Origin: Thermomonas aquatica
GTDB lineage: Bacteria; Pseudomonadota; Gammaproteobacteria; Xanthomonadales; Xanthomonadaceae
DNA length: 64,000 nucleotides
NCBI RefSeq assembly: GCF_006337105.1
Contig: NZ_CP040871.1
Coordinates: 2,203,501 to 2,267,500 of the forward strand
Direction of reading: 5' to 3'
Numbering within the stretch: position 1 is the stretch's first letter; every line of letters starts with the position of its first letter. Shown here one piece after another: positions 26,632 through 50,673 of the stretch. A model generated the notes under the pieces. It was given only the letters and a program-made list of their open reading frames with translations. It ran no database searches and had not been told where the DNA came from. Both the position numbers and the translations under genes were made by a program.

Positions 26632-28293
<1,662 letters not shown>

Positions 28294-28320
28294 TCCGGCC
28301 CGCCACGTCAGCCTGAATGC

Positions 28321-28351
28321 GAAGCCCGGCCTTGTGCCGGGCTTCGTTTTT
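28321..28351 (+). terminator. Rho-independent terminator after groEL
   Basis: A 10-bp perfect stem GAAGCCCGGC / GCCGGGCTTC with a 5-nt loop is followed by a G and a run of T (28347-28351). It starts 28 bp after the groEL stop. Confidence 0.9.
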
Positions 28352-28394
28352 GCGGCAGAGTGCGGCGCATCTAAGGAAGGAGCATGCCCGCGCC

Positions 28395-30011
28395 ATGAGT
28401 CGCCATCCCGCGCCGCCGAAGCCCTTGCTCTTTTCGCGCCGTCAAGCACTGGCGATGTTGTCGTCGTCCATCGCGCTGGCCGCATGCGGCGGCGGGGGCG
28501 GCAGGTCCAGTCCCGGGCCGTCGCCGTTGCCACCGCCGGTGACGCCGCCCCCGCCGGCAGTGAATGGCCCGGCCTGGTTCAGCTACGGGCACGATGCGCA
28601 GCACACCGCGGTCAGCGCGATCGCCACGCAGGACCTGGCGCGCGTGGCATGGACGACGCCGGTCGACCTGGCCCCGCAATACACACCGTCCGGCGCGCTG
28701 CTCACCCACTACGGTTCGCCGGTGGTGACCACCCACAACACCGTGCTCATCCCGGTGAAGACGACGGCCACCGGCGCTTACCGCGTGGAAGGCCGCAACG
28801 GCGCCAACGGCGCGCTGGTCTGGCAGGCGAATACCGACTACGTGACCCCGCCGCACAACTGGGTTCCGCCCTACAACCTGCTGCTCACCCCGCAGGGCCG
28901 GTTGTATGCGCCGGGCGCCGGCGGCAAGTTGCTGATGCGGGCCGACGGCGACGCCGCCACCGGCACGTTCACGCCGCAGGTGTTCTACGGCGCCGCGCAG
29001 TACAACGCCAATCCGGCCGCGTTCGACGCCACCGTCTTCATCAACACGCCGGTGACCGCGGACGCGCAGGGCAATCTGTTCTTCGGCTTCCAGGTGACGG
29101 GGAGCAATCCGGCCGGGCTGGTGAGCGGCATCGCCCGCATCGCCGCGGACGGCACCGGCACCTGGGTCGGCGTCGCCGCCGCCGCCGCCGATCCGACCAT
29201 CGTGAAGCCGGTGCTCAACTGCGCGCCGGCGCTCTCCAACGACGGCAGCACCGTCTACATCGCGGCGAATCGCGGCGCGACCAGCGCGACCCAGAACGGC
29301 GTGCTGCTCGCGCTCAACAGCACCACGCTGGCCACCCGCGCCAGCGTCGCCCTGATGGATCCGAACCTGGGCGTTCCTGCACGTCTCAGCGACGACGGCA
29401 CGGCGACGCCGGTGATCGGCCCCGATGGCCACGTGTTCTACGGCGTGCTGGAACGCACGTTCGGCACCCACAACGCGCGCGGCTGGCTGCTGCAGTTCGA
29501 TGCCATGCTCAATCCGGTGGGCGTGCCGGGCAGCTTCGGCTGGGACGTGTCGCCGAGCGTGATCCCGGCATCGATGGTGCCGTCCTACACCGGCGCCTCG
29601 ACCTACCTGCTTGCGCAGAAGTACAACAACTATGCCGGCGTCGGCACCGGCATCGGGCTCAACCAGCTGGCCATCCTCGATCCGGGCGCGAGCCAGGCCG
29701 ACACGATCGTGCCGGCCATGCAGGTGATGAAGGAAGTGCTCACCATCCTCGGCCCGACGCTGGACGTCGGCTCGACCACGGCGCGGCGCGAATGGTGCAT
29801 CAACACCATGGCCGCGGACCCGGCGCGCAAGTCGATCCTGGCCAACAACGAGGACGGCATCCTGTATCGCTGGGACCTCACCACCAACACCTTCACCCAG
29901 AACGTGCGGCTCAACGCCGGGCTCGGCCAGGCCTATACGCCGACCCTGGTGGGTGCCGACGGCGGGGTCTACGCGATCAGCAACGCGACCCTGTACGCGA
30001 TCCGCGCCTAG
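28395..30011 (+). CDS. Secreted lipoprotein with beta-propeller-like repeats
   Basis: A 538-residue protein with a twin-arginine leader (SRRQALA at 14-20) and a lipobox ending LAAC (C31), then a Gly/Pro/Ser linker. The remainder resembles a PQQ- or WD-type beta-propeller: repeated blocks such as GNLFFGFQVTG, DGSTVYIAANRG and GHVFYGVLERTFG. The exact family was not recognised. It probably sits lipid-anchored on the periplasmic side. Its stop overlaps that of the convergent di-haem lipoprotein gene by 4 bp, and the two may cooperate. The ATG at 28395 lies 12 bp after AAGGAAGGAG; an earlier start would put the lipobox deep in the protein. Confidence 0.72.
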   Translation: MSRHPAPPKPLLFSRRQALAMLSSSIALAACGGGGGRSSPGPSPLPPPVTPPPPAVNGPAWFSYGHDAQHTAVSAIATQDLARVAWTTPVDLAPQYTPSGALLTHYGSPVVTTHNTVLIPVKTTATGAYRVEGRNGANGALVWQANTDYVTPPHNWVPPYNLLLTPQGRLYAPGAGGKLLMRADGDAATGTFTPQVFYGAAQYNANPAAFDATVFINTPVTADAQGNLFFGFQVTGSNPAGLVSGIARIAADGTGTWVGVAAAAADPTIVKPVLNCAPALSNDGSTVYIAANRGATSATQNGVLLALNSTTLATRASVALMDPNLGVPARLSDDGTATPVIGPDGHVFYGVLERTFGTHNARGWLLQFDAMLNPVGVPGSFGWDVSPSVIPASMVPSYTGASTYLLAQKYNNYAGVGTGIGLNQLAILDPGASQADTIVPAMQVMKEVLTILGPTLDVGSTTARREWCINTMAADPARKSILANNEDGILYRWDLTTNTFTQNVRLNAGLGQAYTPTLVGADGGVYAISNATLYAIRA

Positions 30012-31156
30012 CGGCGGAACGGATCGCCGAAGCGCGGATCCGTTGTCAGCGCGGGATCGTCCAGCGTCTTCAGGAAGGCGACCAGCGCGGCGCGGTCGGT
30101 CGCATCGAGGTGCAGGCGTCGTGGCGCGCCGCCGTCGCGCAGGCGAGGGTCGAGCGCCGGGCCGTCCTGGATTCCCGAAGCGTAGAAATCGATCACCTCG
30201 GCCAGGGTCGCGAAGCGGCCGTCGTGCATGTACGGCCCGCTCAGGCCCACGCTGCGCAGCGATGGCGCCTTGAACAGCCGCGTCTCGCCGGCATCGAGGC
30301 CATTGCTGCGCGCATCCGCGGCCAGGGCGAAGGTCGGCGGCCGGTGGCAGGACGCGCAGCCGGCGCCGCCCTGGTCCACGGAGGTCATGAACAGGTGGCG
30401 GCCGTGGTTCTCCTGGGCAGTGAAATTCGGCAGGTCGACGTCCAGCGCCCGGTTCGGCGCGGTGGGCGAGAACACCCGCGCATAGCCGGCATCCCAGCGA
30501 CTGTCGTGCGAGACCATCGCCCGCACGAACTGGGCCAGCGCCTGCTGGATGCGCGGCTCGCTGATCGTCGCGCTGCCGAACGCCCAGGCGAACAGGTCCG
30601 GGTAGTAAGCCGTCGCCGCCATCTTGCGGAGCAGGGCATCGATGCCGCCCGCGGTCTCGCCCCAGCCCATCTCGACCAGGCTGTGCAGCGGCTGGCTCGC
30701 CTGCGCTTCCGCGGTGGGCATGCGCCGGTCCCAGAAGGCGCTGCCCGGCCGCCAGTAACGCAGGTTGCCGAGCCGCATGGCATGGAAGTCGGTGGTGCCG
30801 GCGGTGCTGATGCCGTTGCTGAAGCGCAGCGGATCGGTGAAGCCGATGCGTTGCTGGTGGCAGGCGGCGCAGGAGCTGCGGTTGTTGGTGCTCAGCCGCA
30901 GGTCGTGGAACAGCACCCGCCCGAGCGTCGCCACCCGGTCGTCGCCGGGGTTGGACGCCGGGCTGTTGTCGAGCGCGGCCACCGTCCCGTCGAAATAGGC
31001 GGGCAGCGGCGGCGCGGCGTAATTGGCGACCTGCGCGAAATCGATGCGGGTGGCGGCGGCGACGCCCGCCGGAGTGGGGGACGGGACGTCCTCGCGGCCG
31101 CATGCCGCCAGCGCCAGGATCGCCGCGGCGCAGGTGAGCGCCCTGATGCTTCGCAA
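30008..31156 (-). CDS. Di-haem cytochrome c peroxidase / MauG-family lipoprotein
   Basis: A 382-residue protein of the bacterial cytochrome c peroxidase/MauG family. It has a lipoprotein leader (LAAC, C19) and two haem c motifs, CAACH at 96-100 and CASCH at 267-271. Other family blocks are LGRVLFHDLRLS, RNNRSS-like flanks before the first haem, FKAPSLRSVGLSGPYMHDGRF after the second, and LVAFLKTL near the end. Family members reduce H2O2 or oxidise protein side chains in the periplasm. The partner is unknown. The convergent beta-propeller lipoprotein gene is a candidate. Confidence 0.88.
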   Translation of the reverse strand: MRSIRALTCAAAILALAACGREDVPSPTPAGVAAATRIDFAQVANYAAPPLPAYFDGTVAALDNSPASNPGDDRVATLGRVLFHDLRLSTNNRSSCAACHQQRIGFTDPLRFSNGISTAGTTDFHAMRLGNLRYWRPGSAFWDRRMPTAEAQASQPLHSLVEMGWGETAGGIDALLRKMAATAYYPDLFAWAFGSATISEPRIQQALAQFVRAMVSHDSRWDAGYARVFSPTAPNRALDVDLPNFTAQENHGRHLFMTSVDQGGAGCASCHRPPTFALAADARSNGLDAGETRLFKAPSLRSVGLSGPYMHDGRFATLAEVIDFYASGIQDGPALDPRLRDGGAPRRLHLDATDRAALVAFLKTLDDPALTTDPRFGDPFRR

Positions 31157-31395
31157 GCCCGTCCTCTCCCGGTTCGTCCGCGATTCATCCTAGCCGGTTT
31201 GCCGAGGGTCGCCAGCATCGCCGCACCCGCCGCCGCCTCGATCGCCGGTCCGAGAAGTACGGGCCGGCGCCGATGGGCCAGCGGCAGGGATTTCCGATCC
31301 GCGGTTGCATGCATGCCCTTGCATCGACATGCCGCCTCGGCTTCGGCGGCCTTTCCTTCGTGCGGACCTCGACTGGGTATGCTTGCCGTACGTGT
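31157..31395. other. Divergent intergenic region
   Basis: This 239-bp stretch separates the MauG-like gene and the TPR-LicD operon and should hold both promoters. A -10-like TATGCT preceded by TGGG (near 31374-31383) could drive the plus-strand operon. No clear -35 or operator was recognised. In-frame ATGs at 31273 and 31309 leave the exact start of the next gene open. Confidence 0.4.
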
Positions 31396-32745
31396 GTGGT
31401 CGGAGCCGCTGCATTGCTTTCCGCTTGTGTCATCACTCAGCCCGCGTCCGTCGCGTTTCCGCCGGCTGCCCGTCTGGCCGCGGAGGCGACGCGTCGATTG
31501 TCGATGGGCGACCACGACCAGGCGCGGCGTGCCTATGCCGAAGCGTTGCGACGGGCCTCGACCTGGCAGTGCTGGTCGAACCTGTCGGCGCTCGCGCTGG
31601 GACTGAAGGATTTCGATGCCGCGCTCGCGAATGCGCGCAAGGCGATCGGCATGGCGCCGGCGCAGGCGGAGGCGTGGGTGAACGCAGGGGTCGCTTGTTG
31701 GCATGCCGGAGCGCGCAAGGACGGCGCACGGGCAATGGCGCATGCAGTCGAACTCGCGCCCGCGAACGCAACGGCGGCGATCGACTACGCCTACATGTTG
31801 CGTAGCGTGGATCGCGTGACCCAAGCCTACGAGGTGATGCGCGCGGCGCGCGAATGCGGCACCCGGACGGCGGCGCTGTTGCGGGCGATGGCGGAGTTGG
31901 AGCGGATCCTCGGGCGGTTCGGCGATTGCCGCCAGCATGCGTTGGAGGCATTGCAGTTGATGGCGAACGAGGGATTGCCGAGTCCGGCACTGCCCGAGCT
32001 GCCCGCGCAGCTTCCCCATTCGCTCGAGGCATGGCGCGGGGTGCTGGAGGATTGCCTGCGGAGGCTGGCGCCCCTGCGTTGCGATCCATGCATGGCGGGT
32101 GGCGCGGTGCGCATCTACGCGTTGCACGGCGGGCTGCCAGAACCGCGCAAGGATATCGACATCGTCGTCGATAGCCGGGTCGGCCACGACGCGCTGCGCG
32201 CCGCCTTCGCCGACGGCTACCGTCCGTTCGCCCGGCAAGGGCAGATTGCCCCGAGTGGCGGCGCGATCGGCGTGCTCGGCCTGGTGCACGAGGCCAGCGG
32301 CATTCCGATCGACATCATGCTGCAGGACCGGAGCGGCGGGCGCTGGCGGGGCTCGTTTGGCGCCCCGGATCACCTGGTGTTCGACACGCCCGCATTCTCG
32401 ATCGTCGAGGAAGCATGCGCGGGAATGCAGGTGCCGTTGCCGCTACCGCAGCCGCTCGACGAATACCTGCAATGGATCTACGGCGACGACTGGGCGCTGC
32501 CTACCCAGATGGTGGCCGGCACCCCGGTGCCCCGGGAATTCATCCAGAAGGGCTTGCACAGCCCGGGGATCGCGTCGGCGAGTCGCCCGGCAGCGCTCAA
32601 CCGCGCCCTGCTGTCGCTTCTCACGGCCTTGCACGAGGGCCAGATGCGGTCGGCGGCGGCGTTGTGCCACCAGATCCTCGCCGTCGAACAGCAGGACGCG
32701 GTGCGCGAGGTGCAAGCACGGTTGTCGGGCGGTCGGATTCGGTAA
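31396..32745 (+). CDS. TPR protein with LicD/fukutin-like nucleotidyltransferase domain (copy 1)
   Basis: A protein of about 449 residues with an N-terminal tetratricopeptide-type region (about 25-190, for example AYAEALRRASTWQCWSNLSA and NARKAIGMAPAQAEAWVN). A LicD-like phosphotransferase domain follows, with KDIDIVV at 252-258, GIPIDIML and a C-terminal PLDEYLQWIYGDDW. LicD and fukutin-type enzymes transfer phospho-alcohols from CDP donors. It is paralogous to the next gene but lacks part of the usual motif before DID. Starts at 31309 (ATG), 31396 (GTG) or 31414 (TTG) are possible; alignment with the paralogue favours about 31396-31430. The next gene begins 26 bp later. Confidence 0.7.
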   Translation: MVGAAALLSACVITQPASVAFPPAARLAAEATRRLSMGDHDQARRAYAEALRRASTWQCWSNLSALALGLKDFDAALANARKAIGMAPAQAEAWVNAGVACWHAGARKDGARAMAHAVELAPANATAAIDYAYMLRSVDRVTQAYEVMRAARECGTRTAALLRAMAELERILGRFGDCRQHALEALQLMANEGLPSPALPELPAQLPHSLEAWRGVLEDCLRRLAPLRCDPCMAGGAVRIYALHGGLPEPRKDIDIVVDSRVGHDALRAAFADGYRPFARQGQIAPSGGAIGVLGLVHEASGIPIDIMLQDRSGGRWRGSFGAPDHLVFDTPAFSIVEEACAGMQVPLPLPQPLDEYLQWIYGDDWALPTQMVAGTPVPREFIQKGLHSPGIASASRPAALNRALLSLLTALHEGQMRSAAALCHQILAVEQQDAVREVQARLSGGRIR

Positions 32746-32771
32746 CATGCGCGGCGCTCTCAGGGGGCATC

Positions 32772-34109
32772 GTGAGCCAATTGCAGTGGAACGTCCGGGT
32801 CGCGCGATCCCCGGAGCCGGCGGCGGATGCCATCGTCCAGGCCGCCAGGTCGCTCGACGCGGGGGATAGGCAAGAGGCCGAACAGGGCTATCGCAAGGCG
32901 CAGAAAGAGGCCTTGCGCCATCCCGCGAGCTGGTCGAACCTCGCCGCGCTCGGCATCGGCCTGGGCGATGCCGCCGGCGCGCGCGCGCATGCGCAGCGCG
33001 CGCTGCAGCTGGACAGTCGCCATGCCGACGCCTGGGTGAATTACGGCGTCGCCAGCTGGATGCTGCAACGACGGCGCGATGCCGCGCAGGCCATGCACCA
33101 GGCGCTGGTGCTGGTGCCCGGCTTGGAAGCGGCGGCATTGAACTATGCGCAGATGCAGCGCGCGGTGGGGCGGGACGACCGCGCGCTGGAGGTCCTGCGG
33201 GATGCCGCGGCGCGGCTGCCCGGCAATTGGCAACTCGCGCTCGCCCACGCAGAGCAGGCGCGCCTGCGCATGTGCCACGACGAGGCGCGCGCAGCCGTGT
33301 TGCAGGCCTTGCGCGGTCTGTCCGCAGCGACGGATTTCGCTGCGCCGGGACGAAGCGGCCTGCGCCCGCCGGCGGATGCCGGGGTGACGGCGGTGCTGCA
33401 CGACACGTGCGCGCAGCTCGATGCGCTGGGCGTCGGCTATCACCTGACCGCGGGCGTCCTGCTGGCGATCGTCAAGGACGGGCGGCCGTTCCCGCACGAC
33501 AAGGACATCGACCTGGCCCTCCCCGACCTTTCCGAGCACGGCCGCGAGCGGGTCCGCGCGCATTTCGCCGCCAATCCGGACTATCGCGCGTTCCCGCCGC
33601 CGCCGTCGGCGCCTGTCACCGTGATCGGACTGCTGCATGTCGCCAGCGGCATCGGCGTGGACCTGATGCTCCCGCGCAGCGGGCCGGACGGGCGCATGCG
33701 CAACCAGATGGGCTGGCCGGACCAGTTGGCCTCCGAAATGCCCGCGTACCGGATCGGGACCTTCCATTGGGATGGCCGCGACTGGCCGGTCCCGGAGCCG
33801 CTGGATGCATTCCTGGGCGCGATGTACGGCGCCGATTGGCGCGAACAGCGGCGGGTGGATGCCGGTATCGAATACGACCGCTGCTACAGCGACACCATGC
33901 TGTCGAACCCGAGCCGGACAGCGGAGTCCTTGCCGCGCGCGGTGACGCTGGGCCTGTTGCGGCTGGCGCATGCGTTGCGCGGGCGGGAATGGGCGCGCGC
34001 GGTGGCCTATTGCGCGCAACTGCTGGCGCGCGAAGACCTGGCCGAAGTGCGCGGCCTGCTGGCCAGGCTGCAGGCCGCCGGCCATGACGGGCTGCGTTTC
34101 GATGGCTGA
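32772..34109 (+). CDS. TPR protein with LicD/fukutin-like domain (copy 2)
   Basis: A 445-residue paralogue of the preceding protein. TPR-type helices fill residues 15-185 (for example AQRALQLDSRHADAWVNYGV). The LicD-like domain runs from about 205, with GYHLTAGVLLAIVKDG then FPHDKDIDLAL (D245, D247), a later GVDLML (D297), and PEPLDAFLGAMYGADW. The HDKDID stretch corresponds to the metal-binding DxD of LicD/fukutin phosphotransferases. A GTG start at 32772 follows CAGGGGG. The stop overlaps the IspD-like gene by 8 bp. The acceptor molecule is unknown; a surface glycan or lipid is plausible given the neighbouring genes. Confidence 0.75.
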   Translation: MSQLQWNVRVARSPEPAADAIVQAARSLDAGDRQEAEQGYRKAQKEALRHPASWSNLAALGIGLGDAAGARAHAQRALQLDSRHADAWVNYGVASWMLQRRRDAAQAMHQALVLVPGLEAAALNYAQMQRAVGRDDRALEVLRDAAARLPGNWQLALAHAEQARLRMCHDEARAAVLQALRGLSAATDFAAPGRSGLRPPADAGVTAVLHDTCAQLDALGVGYHLTAGVLLAIVKDGRPFPHDKDIDLALPDLSEHGRERVRAHFAANPDYRAFPPPPSAPVTVIGLLHVASGIGVDLMLPRSGPDGRMRNQMGWPDQLASEMPAYRIGTFHWDGRDWPVPEPLDAFLGAMYGADWREQRRVDAGIEYDRCYSDTMLSNPSRTAESLPRAVTLGLLRLAHALRGREWARAVAYCAQLLAREDLAEVRGLLARLQAAGHDGLRFDG

Positions 34110-34761
34110 AGTCGAAGTGTCATGCCTGATTCCCTCGGCGGGCAGCGGTGATCGGCTCGGGCTCGGCTGCAAGGGTTTCCTGGAACTGGCCGGGCGGCCC
34201 CTGCTGCGCTGGCTGGCGGACAAGGGGCGCCGGGTCGCGGATGAAGTCGTGGTCGCGGTGCCGGCCGACCGGCTCGACGAAGCCAACGCGCTGTTGCCCG
34301 ATTGCCGGGTGATCGTCGGCGGCGAAACCCGCCACGACAGCGTGGCCCTGCTGGCCCGCGCCGCGCGCGGCGACTGGTTGCTGCTGCAGGATGCTGCCAG
34401 GCCGTTCTCCAGCATCGCGCTGTGTGCCGCGGTGCTGGCCCGCGCGCGCGAAACCGGTTGCGCCGGCGCGTTCGTGGATCCCGAAGTGCCGGTGGCGCGG
34501 CTGCGCGACGGCAAGGTGGCAGCGGTCCTGCTGCGCCACGAAGCGGGCGTGTTCCAGTCGCCGCAGGCATTCTCGCGCGAGACGATGCGCAGGCTGCTGG
34601 CGCATGCGCAGGAACGCGGCTACCGGCCGCAATCGACCTTGCAACTGGCGATCGACGCGGGAATCGAGGTGGCCGCCGTCGCCGGCGAGAAACACAACAT
34701 CAAGTTGACCACGCCGATCGACTGGCGGGTCGCGACATTGCTGGAGGAATACCTGACATGA
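34102..34761 (+). CDS. IspD-like cytidylyltransferase
   Basis: A 219-residue nucleotidyltransferase of the IspD/TarI family. The CTP-binding start PSAGSGDRLG (11-20) with K24, then GGETRHDSV (73-81), QDAARPF (96-102), QSPQAF (152-157) and NIKLTTPID (199-207) match the family blocks. Members couple CTP to methylerythritol phosphate (IspD) or to ribitol or glycerol phosphate (TarI, human CRPPA). Context argues against isoprenoid synthesis: the gene sits in a LicD/RuBisCO-like operon, not beside ispF. A CDP-alditol product is more likely. It overlaps the TPR-LicD gene by 8 bp and the RuBisCO-like gene by 4 bp. Confidence 0.82.
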   Translation: MAEVEVSCLIPSAGSGDRLGLGCKGFLELAGRPLLRWLADKGRRVADEVVVAVPADRLDEANALLPDCRVIVGGETRHDSVALLARAARGDWLLLQDAARPFSSIALCAAVLARARETGCAGAFVDPEVPVARLRDGKVAAVLLRHEAGVFQSPQAFSRETMRRLLAHAQERGYRPQSTLQLAIDAGIEVAAVAGEKHNIKLTTPIDWRVATLLEEYLT

Positions 34762-35990
34762 GCAGTGGCAACATGCCGCGCACGCAGCACCCCGAACTGT
34801 TCCAGTGGCAAGCCCGGTTGTCGCCGGCGGATTACCTGCGGGCGACCTATCGGGTGGCGTCGCAACACGACGGCGTCGCCACCGCGATGGCGATGGCGAT
34901 GGAACAGAGCGCGGCGACCACCGCGATCCGCGGGCACGTCGAACCGGCGATGCTGGAGGACTGGACGATCCGCGTGCTCGACGTGCAGGCGGATGGCGAT
35001 GCCGCGGGCGCGGTGGCGCCCTACCACCTGCAGACCGAGGTGTACGCCGACGAGGAAGGCGGCGAAAGCGCGTGGCGCGTCGAACTGGCCATCCCCCGGC
35101 GATTGCTGGCCGGCAAGCCGGCCCAGCTGTGGAACGTGGTGGTCGGTGAAATCCCGCGGCTGGGGTTCCTGACCCGGTTCCAACTGGCCGCGCTGGCGTT
35201 GCCGGAAGGTTTCGGGCCCGGTCCGGGCTTCGGCGTGTCCGGCATCCGCGCCATGCTGGGAATCGAGCGCGGGCCGGTGTTGTGCCGCTCGATGCGGCCC
35301 GCTGTCGGCCTGGACACCGACACCATGGCGCGGCTCAACCGCGAGGTGCTGGAAGGCGGCTTCCACATGGTCAAGGACGACGAATTGCAGGTGTTCGCGG
35401 ATGGCGGGGATTTCGCCCGCCATGTACAGGCGATGGTGGCCGCGCGCGATGCCGCGCGCGCGGCCAGCGGCCAGCGCAAGGGCTACCTCGCCAACCTGAT
35501 CTGCGAGCCCTGGGAACTGCAGTCGCGCTGGGAGGTCGCGTGCGAGGCCGGCGTGGACGCGGTGCTGGTGGCGCCCGGCATCCAGGGCATGGGCACGCTG
35601 GAGATGCTGGCGCGCCAGCGGCGCATGCCGATCCTGGCCCACAACACCTTCAGCGACCTGCTCACCCGCAATCCCGGCTGGGGCGTCGCGCATCCGGTGA
35701 TGTGCGCCTTGCACGAGGCCTTCGGCGCGGACTGGGTGGTGACCTCGGGCGAGTACGGCGCGCATGACGGCGCCGGCATGGCCGATGCCTGGCCGTTCGC
35801 GCGACCGCAGCGGGCGATGCCGATCCTGCAGGGCGGCAAGTCGCCCGACGGACTGGCGCGCTACCGCGCGGCGATCGGCAGCGACGACTACATGCTGATC
35901 GTCGCGTCCTGGGTGGATGGCCATGCGCAGGGCATGCGCAACGCCGCCGGCATCTTCCGCGACGCGCTGGACCGGCAGGCGCCGGGCTGA
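34758..35990 (+). CDS. RuBisCO-like protein (Form IV, non-carboxylating)
   Basis: A 410-residue protein with the RuBisCO large-subunit fold. The barrel is recognisable by RSMRPAVGL (178-185), GGFHMVKDDE (200-209) and MPILAHNTFSD (290-300). The late segment ILQGGKSPDGLARYR and VASWVDGHAQGMRNAAG corresponds to the phosphate-binding end. The lysine of KDDE (K206) and H295 are kept. The catalytic lysine pair of IKPK is replaced by R180 and A182, and the loop-6 lysine is absent, so carboxylation is not expected. Relatives act as enolases, isomerases or decarboxylases on sugar phosphates. It begins in a 4-bp overlap with the IspD-like gene, implying a shared pathway. Confidence 0.83.
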   Translation: MSSGNMPRTQHPELFQWQARLSPADYLRATYRVASQHDGVATAMAMAMEQSAATTAIRGHVEPAMLEDWTIRVLDVQADGDAAGAVAPYHLQTEVYADEEGGESAWRVELAIPRRLLAGKPAQLWNVVVGEIPRLGFLTRFQLAALALPEGFGPGPGFGVSGIRAMLGIERGPVLCRSMRPAVGLDTDTMARLNREVLEGGFHMVKDDELQVFADGGDFARHVQAMVAARDAARAASGQRKGYLANLICEPWELQSRWEVACEAGVDAVLVAPGIQGMGTLEMLARQRRMPILAHNTFSDLLTRNPGWGVAHPVMCALHEAFGADWVVTSGEYGAHDGAGMADAWPFARPQRAMPILQGGKSPDGLARYRAAIGSDDYMLIVASWVDGHAQGMRNAAGIFRDALDRQAPG

Positions 35991-36072
35991 GCCGGATGGG
36001 CGTGTCCGCCATCGGATGGCGGATGCGTTGGCATGGGCAGAGGCATCGTCGATGCCGATCGCGAGGTGGCCC

Positions 36073-36591
36073 ATGCCCAAGAACATTGGCGGAACCGTCG
36101 GTCGCGGCGGCAGGAATTTCCCCGCGCTGGACGTGATGACCGTGCAGTACCTGCTCAACTGCGTGCCTGCCGCAGCCGGCGGGCCGATGCAGGAGCTGGC
36201 GGTGGATGGCGCGGCGGGCCCGAAGACCATCGCGGCGATCGAGAAATTCCAGCGCGGCAATGGCTGCGTCTGCGATGGCCGGGTGGATCCGGGCGGCGCC
36301 ACCTTGCGCAACCTGCAGGCCAGGGCGAACGACCCCTACCCGAACCAGCCGCTGAGCCCCGCCGCTGCGAAAGGCCCGGCCAATCCATTCGGGCAGAAGG
36401 GCTTCGGCCAGCCGGGCGGCAAGGGCGGCGGTCCCGGCGATCCGTTCGGGCAGAAGGGCTTCGGCCAGCCGGGCGGCAAGGGCGGCAGTCCCGGCGATCC
36501 ATTCGGGCAGAAAAGCGGTGGCGGCATGCCGCCCGGCGGGGGCGGCGGATTCCCGTTCCCGCAGAAGGGCGGCGGTGCCAAGGGCTATTGA
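36073..36591 (+). CDS. Peptidoglycan-binding domain protein with glycine-rich repeats
   Basis: A 172-residue protein. The first 85 residues match a peptidoglycan-binding-like fold: VMTVQYLLNCVPAAAGGPM, then AVDGAAGPKTIAAIEKFQ, which is the recurring pattern of PG_binding_1 domains. The C-terminal half contains two perfect-length 19-residue repeats (starting PFGQKGFGQPGGKGG) plus a third start, ending in a glycine-rich tail. No signal peptide was seen. It might be exported by another route or act inside a larger complex. The ATG at 36073 is preceded by GAGG. The SET-domain gene follows 8 bp later. Confidence 0.7.
   Translation: MPKNIGGTVGRGGRNFPALDVMTVQYLLNCVPAAAGGPMQELAVDGAAGPKTIAAIEKFQRGNGCVCDGRVDPGGATLRNLQARANDPYPNQPLSPAAAKGPANPFGQKGFGQPGGKGGGPGDPFGQKGFGQPGGKGGSPGDPFGQKSGGGMPPGGGGGFPFPQKGGGAKGY
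36385..36511 (+). repeat. 57-bp tandem repeat in coding sequence
   Basis: The unit begins CCATTCGGGCAGAAGGG or CCGTTCGGGCAG at 36385, 36442 and 36499, spaced exactly 57 bp. Two full copies are present and a third is cut short. It encodes the glycine-rich repeats of the peptidoglycan-binding protein and is prone to copy-number change. Confidence 0.85.
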
Positions 36592-36599
36592 GGCCGCGC

Positions 36600-37115
36600 A
36601 TGGTTGGGGCGGCTGACCCGGGCGAGGACGCCACCGCCTTCGTGCGCGAAGTCCTGATGCCGGGCGGACCGTGGCAGCAACCCCGGCTCGAGGCCGGGGC
36701 CAGTGCGTTCCGGCTGCGCCTGGATCGCTCGCGGATCCACCGCTGGGGCGTGTACGCCGACCAGGACATCCCGGCGCGACGGCGGGTGATCGAATACACC
36801 GGCCAGCGGATCGGCCTGCGCGAAGGCTTCCGTCGCCGGCTGCGTCCGCAGTTGTACCTGTTCCGCTGCAGCGCGCGCCGGCTGATCGACGGCGGCATCG
36901 GCGGCAGCGGCGCGCAGTACATCAACCACGGCTGCGAACCGAACCTGGCCGCCCGCTTCGACCACCGCCGGGTATTCCTGCTCAGCCTGCGGCCGATCGC
37001 CGCGGGCGAGGAACTGCTGTTCGACTACCACCTGCGCGGCGAGATCGACCCGATTCCCTGCCGTTGCGGCGCGGCGCTTTGCCGGGGCTTCCTCAACGAG
37101 CCGGAGCCGGGCTGA
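36600..37115 (+). CDS. SET-domain lysine methyltransferase-like protein
   Basis: A 171-residue SET protein. The motif set is complete: HRWGVYADQDIPARRRVIEYTG at the start of the domain, QYINHGCEPNL (NHGCEPN at 109-115) for SAM and lysine-channel residues, ELLFDYHL (141-143 FDY) and a post-SET cysteine cluster CRCGAALC (154-161), which binds zinc. Bacterial SET enzymes are known in several pathogens, but this target is unknown. It follows the peptidoglycan-binding gene by 8 bp and precedes the PYROXD2-like gene by 65 bp. The ATG at 36600 is the start that lies closest to the domain. Confidence 0.85.
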   Translation: MVGAADPGEDATAFVREVLMPGGPWQQPRLEAGASAFRLRLDRSRIHRWGVYADQDIPARRRVIEYTGQRIGLREGFRRRLRPQLYLFRCSARRLIDGGIGGSGAQYINHGCEPNLAARFDHRRVFLLSLRPIAAGEELLFDYHLRGEIDPIPCRCGAALCRGFLNEPEPG

Positions 37116-37180
37116 AGCACGCTTCCGTTTTCCGCGCCGGACAGGGATCATCGGCGGCAAACGAGGCGAAGGCGGTACCC

Positions 37181-38800
37181 GTGCGCGAATCCCGGAACGA
37201 CGATGTCCTGATCATCGGTGGCGGCCACAACGGCCTGGTCTGCGCGGCCTATCTCGCGGCCGCGGGACTGAAGGTGCGGGTGCTGGAGCGCCGGCAGCTG
37301 GTCGGCGGCGCGGCGGTGACCGAGGAATTCCACCCCGGCTTCCGCAACTCGGTGGCCAGCTACACGGTCAGCCTGCTCAACCCGAAGGTGATCGCCGACC
37401 TGCGCCTGCACCAGCACGGCCTGCGCGTGGTCGAGCGCCCCTACGCGAATTTCCTGCCGTTGCCGGACGGACGCAGCTTCCGCCTCGGCGGCGGCCACAC
37501 CGAAGCCGAGATCGCCAAGTTCGCGCCGGGCGACGTCGCGCGCTGGGCCGGCTACAACGCGATGCTGGATCGGGTGGTCGCGGTGTTGAAGGAGCTGGTG
37601 CACCTGACCCCGCCGAACATCGGCGAGCGCATCGCCTTCGCCGACTGGCTGAATTCCTACGCGGTGGCCAAGCGGCTCAAGCACCTCGACCTGCGCGGCC
37701 GCCGCGACCTGCTCGACCTGTTCACCAAGTCGGCCGGCGAATTGCTCGACCACTACTTCGAGGGCGCGCCGCTGAAGGCGGTGCTGGGCTGGGATTCGGT
37801 GGTCGGCAATTTCGCCAGCCCCTACACCCCGGGCAGCGCCTACGTGCTGCTGCACCACCTGTTCGGCGAAGTGAACGGCAAGACCGGCGTGTGGGGCCAT
37901 GCGATCGGCGGCATGGGTGCGATCACCCAGGCCATGCGCAAGGAATGCGAGGCGCGCGGCGTCGCCATCGAAACCGATGCGGAAGTCGCGCGACTCATCG
38001 TCGAGAACGGCAAGGCGGTCGGCGTCGCGTTGGCCGACGGCCGCGAGCTGCGCGCGGCCACCATCGCCAGCAACCTCAACCCGAAGTTGCTGTACACCAA
38101 GCTGGTCGAACGCGGTCAACTGGACGACGACACCGCCAACCGCATCGAACGCCATCGCAACGGTTCGGGCACCTTCCGCATGAACGTGGCGCTGAGCGAA
38201 CTGCCGGATTTCACCGCGATGCCGGGCACGCAACAACAGCCGCACCACTCCAGCGGGATCCTGATCGGGCCGTCGCTGCAGTATTTCGAGCAGGCGTATT
38301 TCGACGCCAAGTCGAAGGCGCACAACGCCGGCTGGGCGCGCAAGCCGATCGTCGAGGTGGTGATTTCCTCCACGCTGGACGACACCCTTGCGCCCGCCGG
38401 CCAGCACGTCGCCAGCCTGTTCTGCCAGCAGGTGAACCCGGAGGTGGAGGGCGGCTGGGACGCGCACCGCGATACCGTGGCCAGGTTGATGATCGATACC
38501 GTCAACGACTATGCGCCGAACTTCGCGCGCAGCGTGCTCGGTTACGAAGCCTTGAGCCCGCTCGACTTGGAGCGCCGCATCGGCCTGGTCGGCGGCGACA
38601 TCTTCCACGGCGCGCTCGGCCTGGACCAGATGTTCAGCGCGCGCCCGCTGCTGGGGCAGGGTAATTACCGCGGTGCGTTCAAGAATCTCTATCTCTGCGG
38701 TTCCGGCGCCCATCCGGGTGGCGGCGTGACCGGCCTGCCGGGGCGCAATGCCGCGCGCGAGATCCTGAAGGACTTGCGCAAGGGGCCGCGTCCGGATTGA
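37181..38800 (+). CDS. FAD-dependent oxidoreductase, PYROXD2/phytoene-desaturase-like
   Basis: A 539-residue flavoprotein. The Rossmann motif GGGHNGL is at 13-19, followed by KVRVLERRQLVGGAAVTEEF, which is typical of the PYROXD2/CrtI-like group. The C-terminal block LYLCGSGAHPGGGVTGLPG closes the FAD site. Members oxidise or isomerise lipophilic substrates, but here the substrate is unknown and no carotenoid genes are nearby. It starts at the GTG at 37181, since upstream codons run into the intergenic stretch, and a GAAGG precedes it. A monoamine-oxidase-like gene follows. Confidence 0.83.
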   Translation: MRESRNDDVLIIGGGHNGLVCAAYLAAAGLKVRVLERRQLVGGAAVTEEFHPGFRNSVASYTVSLLNPKVIADLRLHQHGLRVVERPYANFLPLPDGRSFRLGGGHTEAEIAKFAPGDVARWAGYNAMLDRVVAVLKELVHLTPPNIGERIAFADWLNSYAVAKRLKHLDLRGRRDLLDLFTKSAGELLDHYFEGAPLKAVLGWDSVVGNFASPYTPGSAYVLLHHLFGEVNGKTGVWGHAIGGMGAITQAMRKECEARGVAIETDAEVARLIVENGKAVGVALADGRELRAATIASNLNPKLLYTKLVERGQLDDDTANRIERHRNGSGTFRMNVALSELPDFTAMPGTQQQPHHSSGILIGPSLQYFEQAYFDAKSKAHNAGWARKPIVEVVISSTLDDTLAPAGQHVASLFCQQVNPEVEGGWDAHRDTVARLMIDTVNDYAPNFARSVLGYEALSPLDLERRIGLVGGDIFHGALGLDQMFSARPLLGQGNYRGAFKNLYLCGSGAHPGGGVTGLPGRNAAREILKDLRKGPRPD

Positions 38801-47522: not shown

Positions 47523-48635
47523 ATGCGCCGCCTGACCGTGGTGCAGCTGCTGCCGGCGCTCGAGTCCGGCGGTGTCGAACGTTCCACCCTCGAGATCGCC
47601 GACGCGCTGGTGCGCGCCGGGCATCGCGCCATCGTGGTGTCGAAGGGCGGGCGCCTGCTGCCGCCGCTGGAAGCGCTGGGCGCGGAGCATGTCGCGCTCG
47701 ACATCGGCCGCAAGTCGCCGTTGACGTTCCGCCACGTGCCTGCGCTGCGGAAACTCTTCCGCGAGGTCGATGCCGACATCGTGCATGCGCGCTCGCGCTT
47801 GCCGGCATGGCTGGGCTGGTTCGCGTTGCGCGGCATCGGCGACAAGCCACCGCATTTCGTCACCACCGCGCACGGCCTGAATTCGCCCTCGCGCTACAGC
47901 GCGATCATGGCCCGCGGCGAGCGCGTCATCTGCGTGTCGCAGGCGGTGCGCGAGTACCTGCTCCGCCACTATCCGAACAGCGATCCCGCACGCCTGGCGG
48001 TCATCCCGCGCGGCATCGATCCCGTAGCGTTCCCGCGCGCGCCGATGCCGGATCCGCAGGCGCGGGCACGCATCGCCGCGCGGCATCCGCAACTCGGCGG
48101 CGCGGGCCCGCTGCTGCTGCTGCCCGGGCGCGGCACGCGCTTGAAGGGCCATGCCGATGCGATCGCCTTGCTGGCGAACCTGCGCGCCTCGGGCCTCGAT
48201 GCGCGGTTGTGGATGCCGGGCGCGCAGCAGGATGGTCGCGAGGCGTACATCGCCGAACTCGAAGAACTGGCCAGTGAAGCCGGCGTCGAGGATGCCATCG
48301 CGATCAGCGAGACTACCCCGGCCATCGCCCAGGCCTATGCCGCCAGCGACCTGGTCCTGCAGCTGTCGCGCAAGCCGGAGTCGTTCGGGCGCACGGTGAT
48401 CGAGGCCTTGTCGGTCGGGCGGCCGGTGCTGGGCTGGGCGCACGGCGGCGTCGGCGAGTTGCTGCGCGAACTGCAACCACGGGGCGCGGTGCCGCCGTTC
48501 GATGCCGCGGCGCTGGCGGCAGCGGCGCGCGAACTGCTCGCGCATCCGCCGGCAGCCGTTACGATGCAGGCGTATCGATTGCAGGCGATGCAGGAGGCGA
48601 CCTTGGGGCTGTACCGATCGCTGGTGGACGCATGA
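47523..48635 (+). CDS. Glycosyltransferase family 4
   Basis: A 370-residue GT-B glycosyltransferase. The N-terminal block QLLPALESGGVERSTLEIA and the C-terminal nucleotide-sugar-binding segment KPESFGRTVIEALSVGRPVLGW with a catalytic E-x7-E pattern are typical of GT4. It probably adds a sugar to the LPS core or a related lipid-linked glycan. It starts the tightly packed group GT4, O-antigen ligase and GT2, and its stop overlaps the next gene by 4 bp. Confidence 0.9.
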   Translation: MRRLTVVQLLPALESGGVERSTLEIADALVRAGHRAIVVSKGGRLLPPLEALGAEHVALDIGRKSPLTFRHVPALRKLFREVDADIVHARSRLPAWLGWFALRGIGDKPPHFVTTAHGLNSPSRYSAIMARGERVICVSQAVREYLLRHYPNSDPARLAVIPRGIDPVAFPRAPMPDPQARARIAARHPQLGGAGPLLLLPGRGTRLKGHADAIALLANLRASGLDARLWMPGAQQDGREAYIAELEELASEAGVEDAIAISETTPAIAQAYAASDLVLQLSRKPESFGRTVIEALSVGRPVLGWAHGGVGELLRELQPRGAVPPFDAAALAAAARELLAHPPAAVTMQAYRLQAMQEATLGLYRSLVDA

Positions 48636-49924
48636 GCGCAAGCCCGGCCGCGCCCGGTTGGCGTTGGGCCCCGCCATGGGTGCTCGCGTTCGTCGCCCTG
48701 TGGCCGGCGCCCGGTTATGCGGAAGCGGTGCTGGCGCTGGGGGCGATCGCCGGCATCGTGCAGCTGTTGCTGTCGCGTTTCCGCGGCAGTGCGAGCCTGC
48801 TCAGCGGCCCGGCCTGGGCGCTGACCAGCGTGCTGTTCTTCGCCTACTGGCTGCCGGAGGCGATCTCCGCGATCGACGCGGCCGACCGCGTGCGCGCCTT
48901 GCGCGAAGCGCTGGTCGACCTGCGCTACCTGCCGTTCCTGTGGATCGTGGCCTCTGCGGTGGCCAGCGAGGAAGGACGGCGACGCACCTTCGGCGGGTTG
49001 GCGGTGATCGTCGGCGTCTGGACGCTGGATGCCCTGCTCGAAGCCGCTACCGGCACCAGTCCATTGTTCTGGGCGATCGACTCCGCCAAGCAGGCGATCA
49101 GCGGCCACGGCATGTGCACCGTGCAGGAAGTGGCCGCGCTGGACCGGCTCGGTGGCGTGCTCGGGCCGTGCAACCTCAAGCTCGGCATCGTGCTGGCCAG
49201 CCTGTCGCCGTTCGCGCTGGACGCGGCGTGGCGGCGCTATGGCCGTGCCGGCTGGTTCATCGCCGCGGCATTGGTTGGCTTGGTCATCCTGCTCGCCGGC
49301 GCGCGCGCGGCCTGGCTCACCTATGGCCTGGTGCTGGCGTGGACCGGCTGGCGGCTGCTCGGCTGGAAGCGGTTGCTCGCGGTGTTCGGCCTGGGCGCCG
49401 CATTGTTGCTGGCCGCGGCGCTGGTGTCTCCGCCGGTGGCCGAACGCCTCAACCGCAGCACCGCGGTGTTCGTCGGCAACGCGCAGGGCGTGGACCATGC
49501 GCTGTCCGGCCGCAGCAGGATCTGGTCGGCGGCGCTGTGCATGGCGCGCACCCATCCGTTCAACGGCGTCGGCGCGCGCGGTTTCCGCGAAGCCTTCCCC
49601 GCTTGCGATGCGGAGAGCGGCACGCTTGCGGCCTGGGGCACCGGCCCGGCCTTGCATGCGCACCAGATCGTGCTGGAGGTGCTGAGCGAAACCGGCGGCT
49701 TCGGCCTGCTGCTGTGGCTGGCGGGCGCGGCGATGGCCAGGCGCGCCTGGCGTTACGCGGATGCCGCGGCGCGCGAGGCCGCGCGTCCGGCGATGCTGGC
49801 GCTGGCGGTCACCGTGTTCCCCTTCAATACCCACCTCGCCGTGTACTCCACCTTCTGGGGCGGCGTGCTGTTGCTGCTCGCCGCGCTGTATGCGGGCAGC
49901 CTGCTGGGCCGCGAGTCCACGTGA
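48632..49924 (+). CDS. O-antigen ligase family protein (WaaL-like)
   Basis: A 430-residue membrane protein with about ten to twelve helices and a large periplasmic loop, the layout of the Wzy/WaaL family. The loop region carries GRSRIWSAALCMARTHPFNGVGARGF and HAHQIVLEVLSETGG, which contain the conserved arginines and histidine. Such proteins join O-antigen to lipid A core. Whether this is a ligase or a polymerase cannot be told from the sequence alone. It overlaps genes on both sides (ATGA and GTGA). Confidence 0.85.
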   Translation: MSASPAAPGWRWAPPWVLAFVALWPAPGYAEAVLALGAIAGIVQLLLSRFRGSASLLSGPAWALTSVLFFAYWLPEAISAIDAADRVRALREALVDLRYLPFLWIVASAVASEEGRRRTFGGLAVIVGVWTLDALLEAATGTSPLFWAIDSAKQAISGHGMCTVQEVAALDRLGGVLGPCNLKLGIVLASLSPFALDAAWRRYGRAGWFIAAALVGLVILLAGARAAWLTYGLVLAWTGWRLLGWKRLLAVFGLGAALLLAAALVSPPVAERLNRSTAVFVGNAQGVDHALSGRSRIWSAALCMARTHPFNGVGARGFREAFPACDAESGTLAAWGTGPALHAHQIVLEVLSETGGFGLLLWLAGAAMARRAWRYADAAAREAARPAMLALAVTVFPFNTHLAVYSTFWGGVLLLLAALYAGSLLGREST

Positions 49925-50673
49925 AGCCGCGGCTTTCCGCGGTCGTCACCACGCTGGACAACGCGGCGACGCTGGAGGCTTGCCTGTCCAGCCTGGGGTT
50001 CTGCGACGAGATCGTGTTGCTGGATTCGGGCTCGGCCGATGCCACCCTCGAGATCGCGCGCCGGCATGGCGCGCGCATCGAAACCCAGGCCTTTGCGGGC
50101 TATGGTCCGCAGAAGCAGGCGGCGATCGAGCTCGCGACCGGCGACTGGATCCTGCTGCTGGATGCGGACGAACACCTGACCGATGCCGGGCGCATCGCCA
50201 TCGAACGCGAGCTCGCCGCGCCGCGCGCGGACGGTTACCGCCTGCCGCGCCAGGAATGGCTGTTCTGGCGCTGGCCGCATGCGGGCACTCGCGCGAATTG
50301 GCAGCTGCGCCTGTTCCGCAAAACGGCGGGTCGGATGAACATGGTGCCGGTGCATGCCGCGCCGGAAGTCGATGGGCGCCTGCTCGACCTCGACGCGCCA
50401 TTCCGCCATTACGGTGAGCCGCGGCTCGCCGATCGCGTCGACAAGGTCAATCGCTATTCCTCAGGCCTGGTCGAGCACAAGCGCGGCAAGCGCGTGCGTT
50501 TCATCGCCTTGCGGCTGCTGTTCTACCCGGGGGTCGCGTTCCTGAAGCTGTACTTCGGCAAGCGCTACTTCCTCAACGGATGGGCCGGCTTCTTCGCGGC
50601 GAAGACGCAGTCGTTCTATGCCTTCCTCAAATACGCGAAGGTGCTGGAAGCGCAGCGTCAGTCGCGCGAATAG
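49921..50673 (+). CDS. Glycosyltransferase family 2, LPS core type (WaaE/KdtX-like)
   Basis: A 250-residue GT2 enzyme. SAVVTTLDNAATLEACLSSL and the GDWILLLDADEHLT segment (DAD motif) match the WaaE/KdtX family, which adds glucose or related sugar to the LPS inner core. FFAAKTQSFYAFLKYAK near the C-terminus could lie on the membrane. A GTG start at 49921 overlaps the previous stop by 4 bp. Its 3' end overlaps the convergent LpxL-like gene by 16 bp. Confidence 0.87.
   Translation: MKPRLSAVVTTLDNAATLEACLSSLGFCDEIVLLDSGSADATLEIARRHGARIETQAFAGYGPQKQAAIELATGDWILLLDADEHLTDAGRIAIERELAAPRADGYRLPRQEWLFWRWPHAGTRANWQLRLFRKTAGRMNMVPVHAAPEVDGRLLDLDAPFRHYGEPRLADRVDKVNRYSSGLVEHKRGKRVRFIALRLLFYPGVAFLKLYFGKRYFLNGWAGFFAAKTQSFYAFLKYAKVLEAQRQSRE

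Follow-up and report, generated by a model that had tools for sequence, protein, structure and literature searches.

Several described systems place a cytidylyltransferase next to a phosphotransferase. In mammals, the IspD-family enzyme ISPD (CRPPA) makes CDP-ribitol, from which the LicD-domain enzymes FKTN/FKRP transfer the phospho-alditol; ISPD–LicD fusions occur in some bacteria, and bacterial ISPD homologues are sometimes fused to a reductase that makes ribitol-5-phosphate (PMC4873967, available portions). A cytidylyltransferase beside a CDP-polyol phosphotransferase, with a LicD or PF04464 protein as the transferase, also characterises the TarI/TarJ, Bcs1 and LicD/TagF teichoic acid and capsule systems (in part PMC4873967, same portions). 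In the phosphonate cytidylyltransferase (PntC) clusters, CTP activation is likewise found beside LicD-like phosphotransferases, with PEP mutase as the precursor enzyme (PMC6697681, available portions). As for RuBisCO-like proteins (RLPs), the accessible parts of the literature report roles in methionine salvage, the MTA–isoprenoid shunt and apiose breakdown (PMC6302742, PMC4958253, PMC10663253), in which sugar-phosphate-like compounds are tautomerised, isomerised or decarboxylated (PMC6302742, PMC4958253), as well as an RLP that aids biotin-poor growth (PMC8914248).

Here, we describe an operon from a 64,000-nucleotide stretch (the window) of the 3.0-Mb single-contig genome of Thermomonas aquatica that encodes TPR–LicD-type proteins, an IspD paralogue (IspD2) and an RLP. 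Its two-enzyme logic is that of the bacterial IspD–LicD fusions, from which it differs in having separate genes, an added RLP and a TPR domain. The TarI/TarJ and Bcs1 systems pair the cytidylyltransferase with a reductase, whereas the partner in the operon is the RLP; FKRP, unlike licB, is not known to carry TPRs. The mammalian pathway, with which the operon shares the IspD-family enzyme and a LicD-domain enzyme of licB-like fold, contains no RLP, and its substrate and acceptor have proposed counterparts here. PntC clusters differ in both substrate and precursor enzyme.

Gene content and conserved residues

All four genes lie on the + strand, are free of internal stops and follow one another at +26, −8 and −4 bp. 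The tight packing described in the first-pass annotation (26 bp, then 8-bp and 4-bp overlaps) and its coordinates proved exact, save that the start of the first gene is uncertain. This gene, licA (31396..32745; GTG at 31396 or ATG at 31504), encodes a TPR protein that also carries a divergent homologue of the domain found in licB (32772..34109). In licB, TPRs (residues 14-189) are followed by a LicD/FKRP-type transferase domain with an FKRP-like nucleotidyltransferase fold (residues 193-414; 33348..34013). Next come ispD2 (34102..34761), an IspD-family cytidylyltransferase paralogue with an altered acceptor-substrate loop, and rlp (34758..35990). No reductase is present in the operon, in contrast to known CDP-ribitol routes.

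The first two products had been taken for TPR–LicD proteins, which held for the TPRs. In Pfam, both have TPR matches and neither has a LicD match; for licB, the LicD/FKRP-type assignment holds as judged from its relatives and its predicted structure. PF04991 is matched at E ≤ 0.01 by 25 of 38 aligned members, and the model contains an FKRP-like domain with the FKRP-type catalytic fold. Where a LicD-type gene precedes ispD2 (six loci, see below), it matches PF04991 at E ≤ 0.001 in five, the window being the exception, and reaches the cut-off of 22.6 bits in four, G011 falling below at 20.1. Within the metal-binding Asp motif, K244, D245, D247 and D297 are present in all 38 rows and D243 in 35, the other three being licA-type rows with R. 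licA itself has R for the first Asp of the DxDxD motif and retains KDID, and none of the three licA-type proteins matches LicD in Pfam (0/3); its LicD label derives from its homology to licB.

ispD2 matches PF01128 (IspD) at 103 bits (cut-off 27), in line with the identity first given to the third gene. It scores below the IspD equivalog TIGR00453 (109.6 against a cut-off of 181.3 bits) and far below the D-ribitol-5-phosphate (TarI) model NF001183 (48.7 against 166 bits). The early caveat that it might be the sole IspD of the genome falls away with a canonical copy elsewhere (873205-873870, 233.9 bits), which adjoins an ORF resembling IspF by eye. We aligned 126 rows, i.e. the seven loci below and 119 of 120 homologues listed (a 331-aa sequence was excluded), with some loci repeated. 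R20, K27, D106, R109 and K213, which we take to be the CTP and catalytic residues of IspD, are retained in 122 to 125 of these rows; the Andreprevotia protein is without D106 and R109. The D139-T140 loop, TDEA and R157 are presumably MEP-site residues: V and P stand in place of E. coli IspD D139 and T140 in 126/126 rows, TDEA is replaced as well, and the R157 position is R in 87, whereas the canonical copy of the genome retains both the D139-T140 loop and TDEA. Because the CTP and catalytic residues are kept and the MEP-site D139-T140 and TDEA are replaced, IspD2 probably acts as a cytidylyltransferase that takes CTP but not MEP.

The RuBisCO-like identity proposed for the fourth gene was borne out by PF00016 (RuBisCO_large, 54.9 bits). 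rlp has the RuBisCO fold and the carbamate/metal triad, and forms a clade apart from the six RLPs and one RuBisCO compared. K201, E204, H294, G380 and G381 are each retained in at least 38 of the 40 rows, and K201, D203 and E204 correspond to the KDDE motif (residues 206-209; 35373..35384). K175, in contrast, is R in 40/40 rows (R180 in the window, codon 35295..35297), the K334 position holds K in none, nor does any column within three of it, and 39 rows have E or D for N123. With all three replaced, identity as a RuBisCO carboxylase was rejected, as was identity as an OiaX decarboxylase (85.1 bits against a cut-off of 700, NF042437). A subclade of four rows, among them the RLP of G022 (L029 9085-10311), has C for D203 (KDCE for KDDE). 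With K175 and K334 lost, and D203 lost in the subclade, catalysis is not certain. The fold and the carbamate-Lys metal site are shared with MtnW, OiaX and the Rhodospirillum rubrum MTRu-1P isomerase (available portions of PMC6302742 and PMC4958253); the separate clade, K175R in all rows and a context of CDP donors rather than salvage or catabolism set rlp apart. Two further sequences were noted: an RLP of another type (L042, genome G109), 28% identical and by eye adjoining GAPDH and aldo/keto reductase genes, and, in G011, a second copy of a C-terminal piece of rlp (L027 8482-8568), which lies between rlp and the relocated licA and is a trace of local duplication.

Recurrence and rarity

Whole ispD2 and rlp genes occur together in seven loci from three families: the window, four members of its genus (G011, G012, G014 and G022), one from another family of the order (G060) and Andreprevotia lacus. 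This recurrence of the cluster is more than chance, and the 4-bp overlap of ispD2 and rlp is found in 7/7. The gene preceding ispD2 is LicD-type in six; in G060, the slot is filled by a PF04464 glycerophosphotransferase (TagF-type; 67.5 bits, cut-off 22.1), which overlaps ispD2 by 4 bp. Copies of licA are also present in G012 and in G011, there 3′ of rlp, and a second licB-like gene takes its place in G022. MAG contig L004 has rlp preceded by the 3′ part of an ispD2-like reading frame that is interrupted further upstream. Separation of the four genes in all relatives, which the first-pass annotation had named as refuting its reading, was not observed, the variants being the relocated licA of G011, the TagF-type enzyme of G060 and a lone LicD in G003.

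Among 25 genomes of the genus, rlp is found in five, ispD2 in the identical five and TPR-LicD in those five plus G003; since the genes are linked, these five co-occurrences should not be counted as independent. At least eight contig sizes (2536, 5023, 6469, 7980, 9474, 33475, 374936 and 1863959) are common to the listed homologues of rlp, licB and ispD2; this hints indirectly at additional complete loci, with the caveat that the shorter sizes could match by chance. At E ≤ 1e-30, rlp was detected in 6/99 relatives, 3/398 genomes from the order, 2/369 from the class (one a different RLP), 1/398 from the phylum (the window itself) and 1/10 in the family of G060; no relative turned up on plasmid or viral contigs. 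Holophagaceae is among the names of the listed homologues. The gene set is real, conserved and rare.

A proposed CDP-X pathway and its rivals

From this gene set, its conservation, the predicted folds and the residues kept and lost, we infer the reactions of a dedicated CDP-X pathway, their order, X and the acceptor; that the operon encodes such a pathway, running from the RLP through IspD2 to the TPR-LicD proteins, is in our judgement evenly poised. The RLP, with metal-dependent enolate chemistry and one phosphate site, would isomerise, tautomerise or decarboxylate a mono-phosphorylated ketose or related compound. IspD2 would join CTP to the resulting phosphate, or to the corresponding alditol phosphate supplied by an unlinked reductase, yielding CDP-X. 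The TPR-LicD proteins (in G060, the TagF-type enzyme) would transfer phospho-X from this donor, the likely acceptor being a glycan, at the surface or on a protein held by the TPR. If X is an alditol, the unlinked reductase is needed, the weakest step of the proposal. By analogy, the RLP would occupy the position where a ribitol-5-phosphate-making reductase is expected; known RLPs rearrange sugar-phosphate-like compounds, and this one may determine the carbon skeleton of the polyol or ketose phosphate activated by IspD2.

The first-pass annotation had suggested a CDP-alcohol route to a phospho-pentitol or similar modification, and this is partly supported: the CDP-alcohol logic gained from the predicted FKRP-like fold and from PF04464 in the G060 transferase slot. 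Sequence and fold lend good support to the CDP-donor logic; the RLP step is novel and hypothetical. The diverged licA, the lone LicD of G003, the D203C subclade and the absence from the window of glycan genes directly adjoining the operon count against the pathway. On the whole, the data point to a previously undescribed surface-decoration pathway with a RuBisCO relative shaping the building block. More specifically, and tentatively, somewhat short of even, an enzyme of the RuBisCO fold might supply an unusual phosphate, of a sugar or a polyol, from which the IspD-like protein of the overlapping gene makes a novel CDP donor; FKRP-like transferases would then use it to decorate the cell surface or glycoproteins. 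In literature searches whose coverage excluded most subscription journals, none of the papers listed linked an RLP with a glycan pathway of the IspD or LicD type. If true, this would be, as far as these searches show, the first biosynthetic, glycan-directed role of the RLP family, and the conserved RLP–IspD–LicD unit would add a bacterial system near the human FKRP pathway as well as a novel CDP donor.

The uncertain catalysis of the RLP, with K175 and K334 gone and D203 lost in one subclade, fits a version in which the CDP-X pathway consists of IspD2 and LicD, and the RLP, rather than making the precursor, acts elsewhere, for example on a by-product or on the moiety once attached, or in a structural or regulatory capacity. 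We consider this unlikely, if worth keeping in mind: the near-invariance of the five retained positions is unlike a dead enzyme, and the overlap with ispD2 recurs at every locus. It is less probable again that CDP-X leads to a small molecule, such as a phosphonate-like compound or other secondary metabolite, instead of to a surface decoration, given the LicD-type and PF04464 transferases, the TPR domain in most and the lack of a PEP mutase or similar gene beside the operons examined (by eye and Pfam).

An isoprenoid link has a precedent in R. rubrum, where an RLP isomerase and a cupin channel MTA into DXP (available portions of PMC4958253 and PMC10663253). Here, the RLP would yield a xylulose-5-phosphate-type compound reaching MEP, with IspD2 as a second IspD, to which it is indeed nearer than to the D-ribitol-5-phosphate model (109.6 against 48.7 bits). 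The canonical IspD, the loop altered in every ispD2 row, the LicD and TagF partners and the absence of any cupin seen by eye among genes of the operons examined make this very improbable. Finally, RLPs with a methionine-salvage role exist (PMC6302742, available portions), and rlp scores 86.4 bits with the MtnW enolase model NF007095. Yet this is far below the cut-off of 409 (a second MtnW model gave 64.7 against 513.6 bits), MtnC, which performs that step, is encoded in 25/25 genomes of the genus, and the coupling to IspD2 is conserved, so that an MtnW sited here by chance can be almost wholly discounted.

Genomic site and neighbouring genes

The operon lies between groEL and an FAD-oxidoreductase gene (window 28293-37181). 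We surveyed 17 loci around the downstream oxidoreductase, ten of which had both genes in view. The pair adjoin each other, no more than ~180 bp apart, in G009, G001, G007 and G008, and in G015 are separated solely by homologues of the two genes that precede the operon. G018 carries a type I restriction system at this spot, G002 a GGDEF-EAL sensor protein. The operon is an occupant of a variable cargo spot in the genus. In G003, the lone TPR-LicD (L076 8468-9919) sits there with neither ispD2 nor an rlp of the present type; this genome also encodes a form I-like RuBisCO (L037).

Downstream of the operon in the window are a peptidoglycan-binding-domain protein with glycine-rich FGQKGFGQPGGKGG-type repeats (36052-36591) and, 3′ of it, a SET-domain protein (36600-37115; PF00856, 62.7 bits); both genes also come after the operon in G012 and G014. 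About 12 kb past the operon, three ORFs (47523-50673) resemble glycosyltransferase and O-antigen-ligase-type genes by eye. In Andreprevotia, a TPR protein that also matches GT9 (L005 9340-10704; 26.4 bits, cut-off 22) lies 82 bp past rlp and is possibly an acceptor-side glycosyltransferase.
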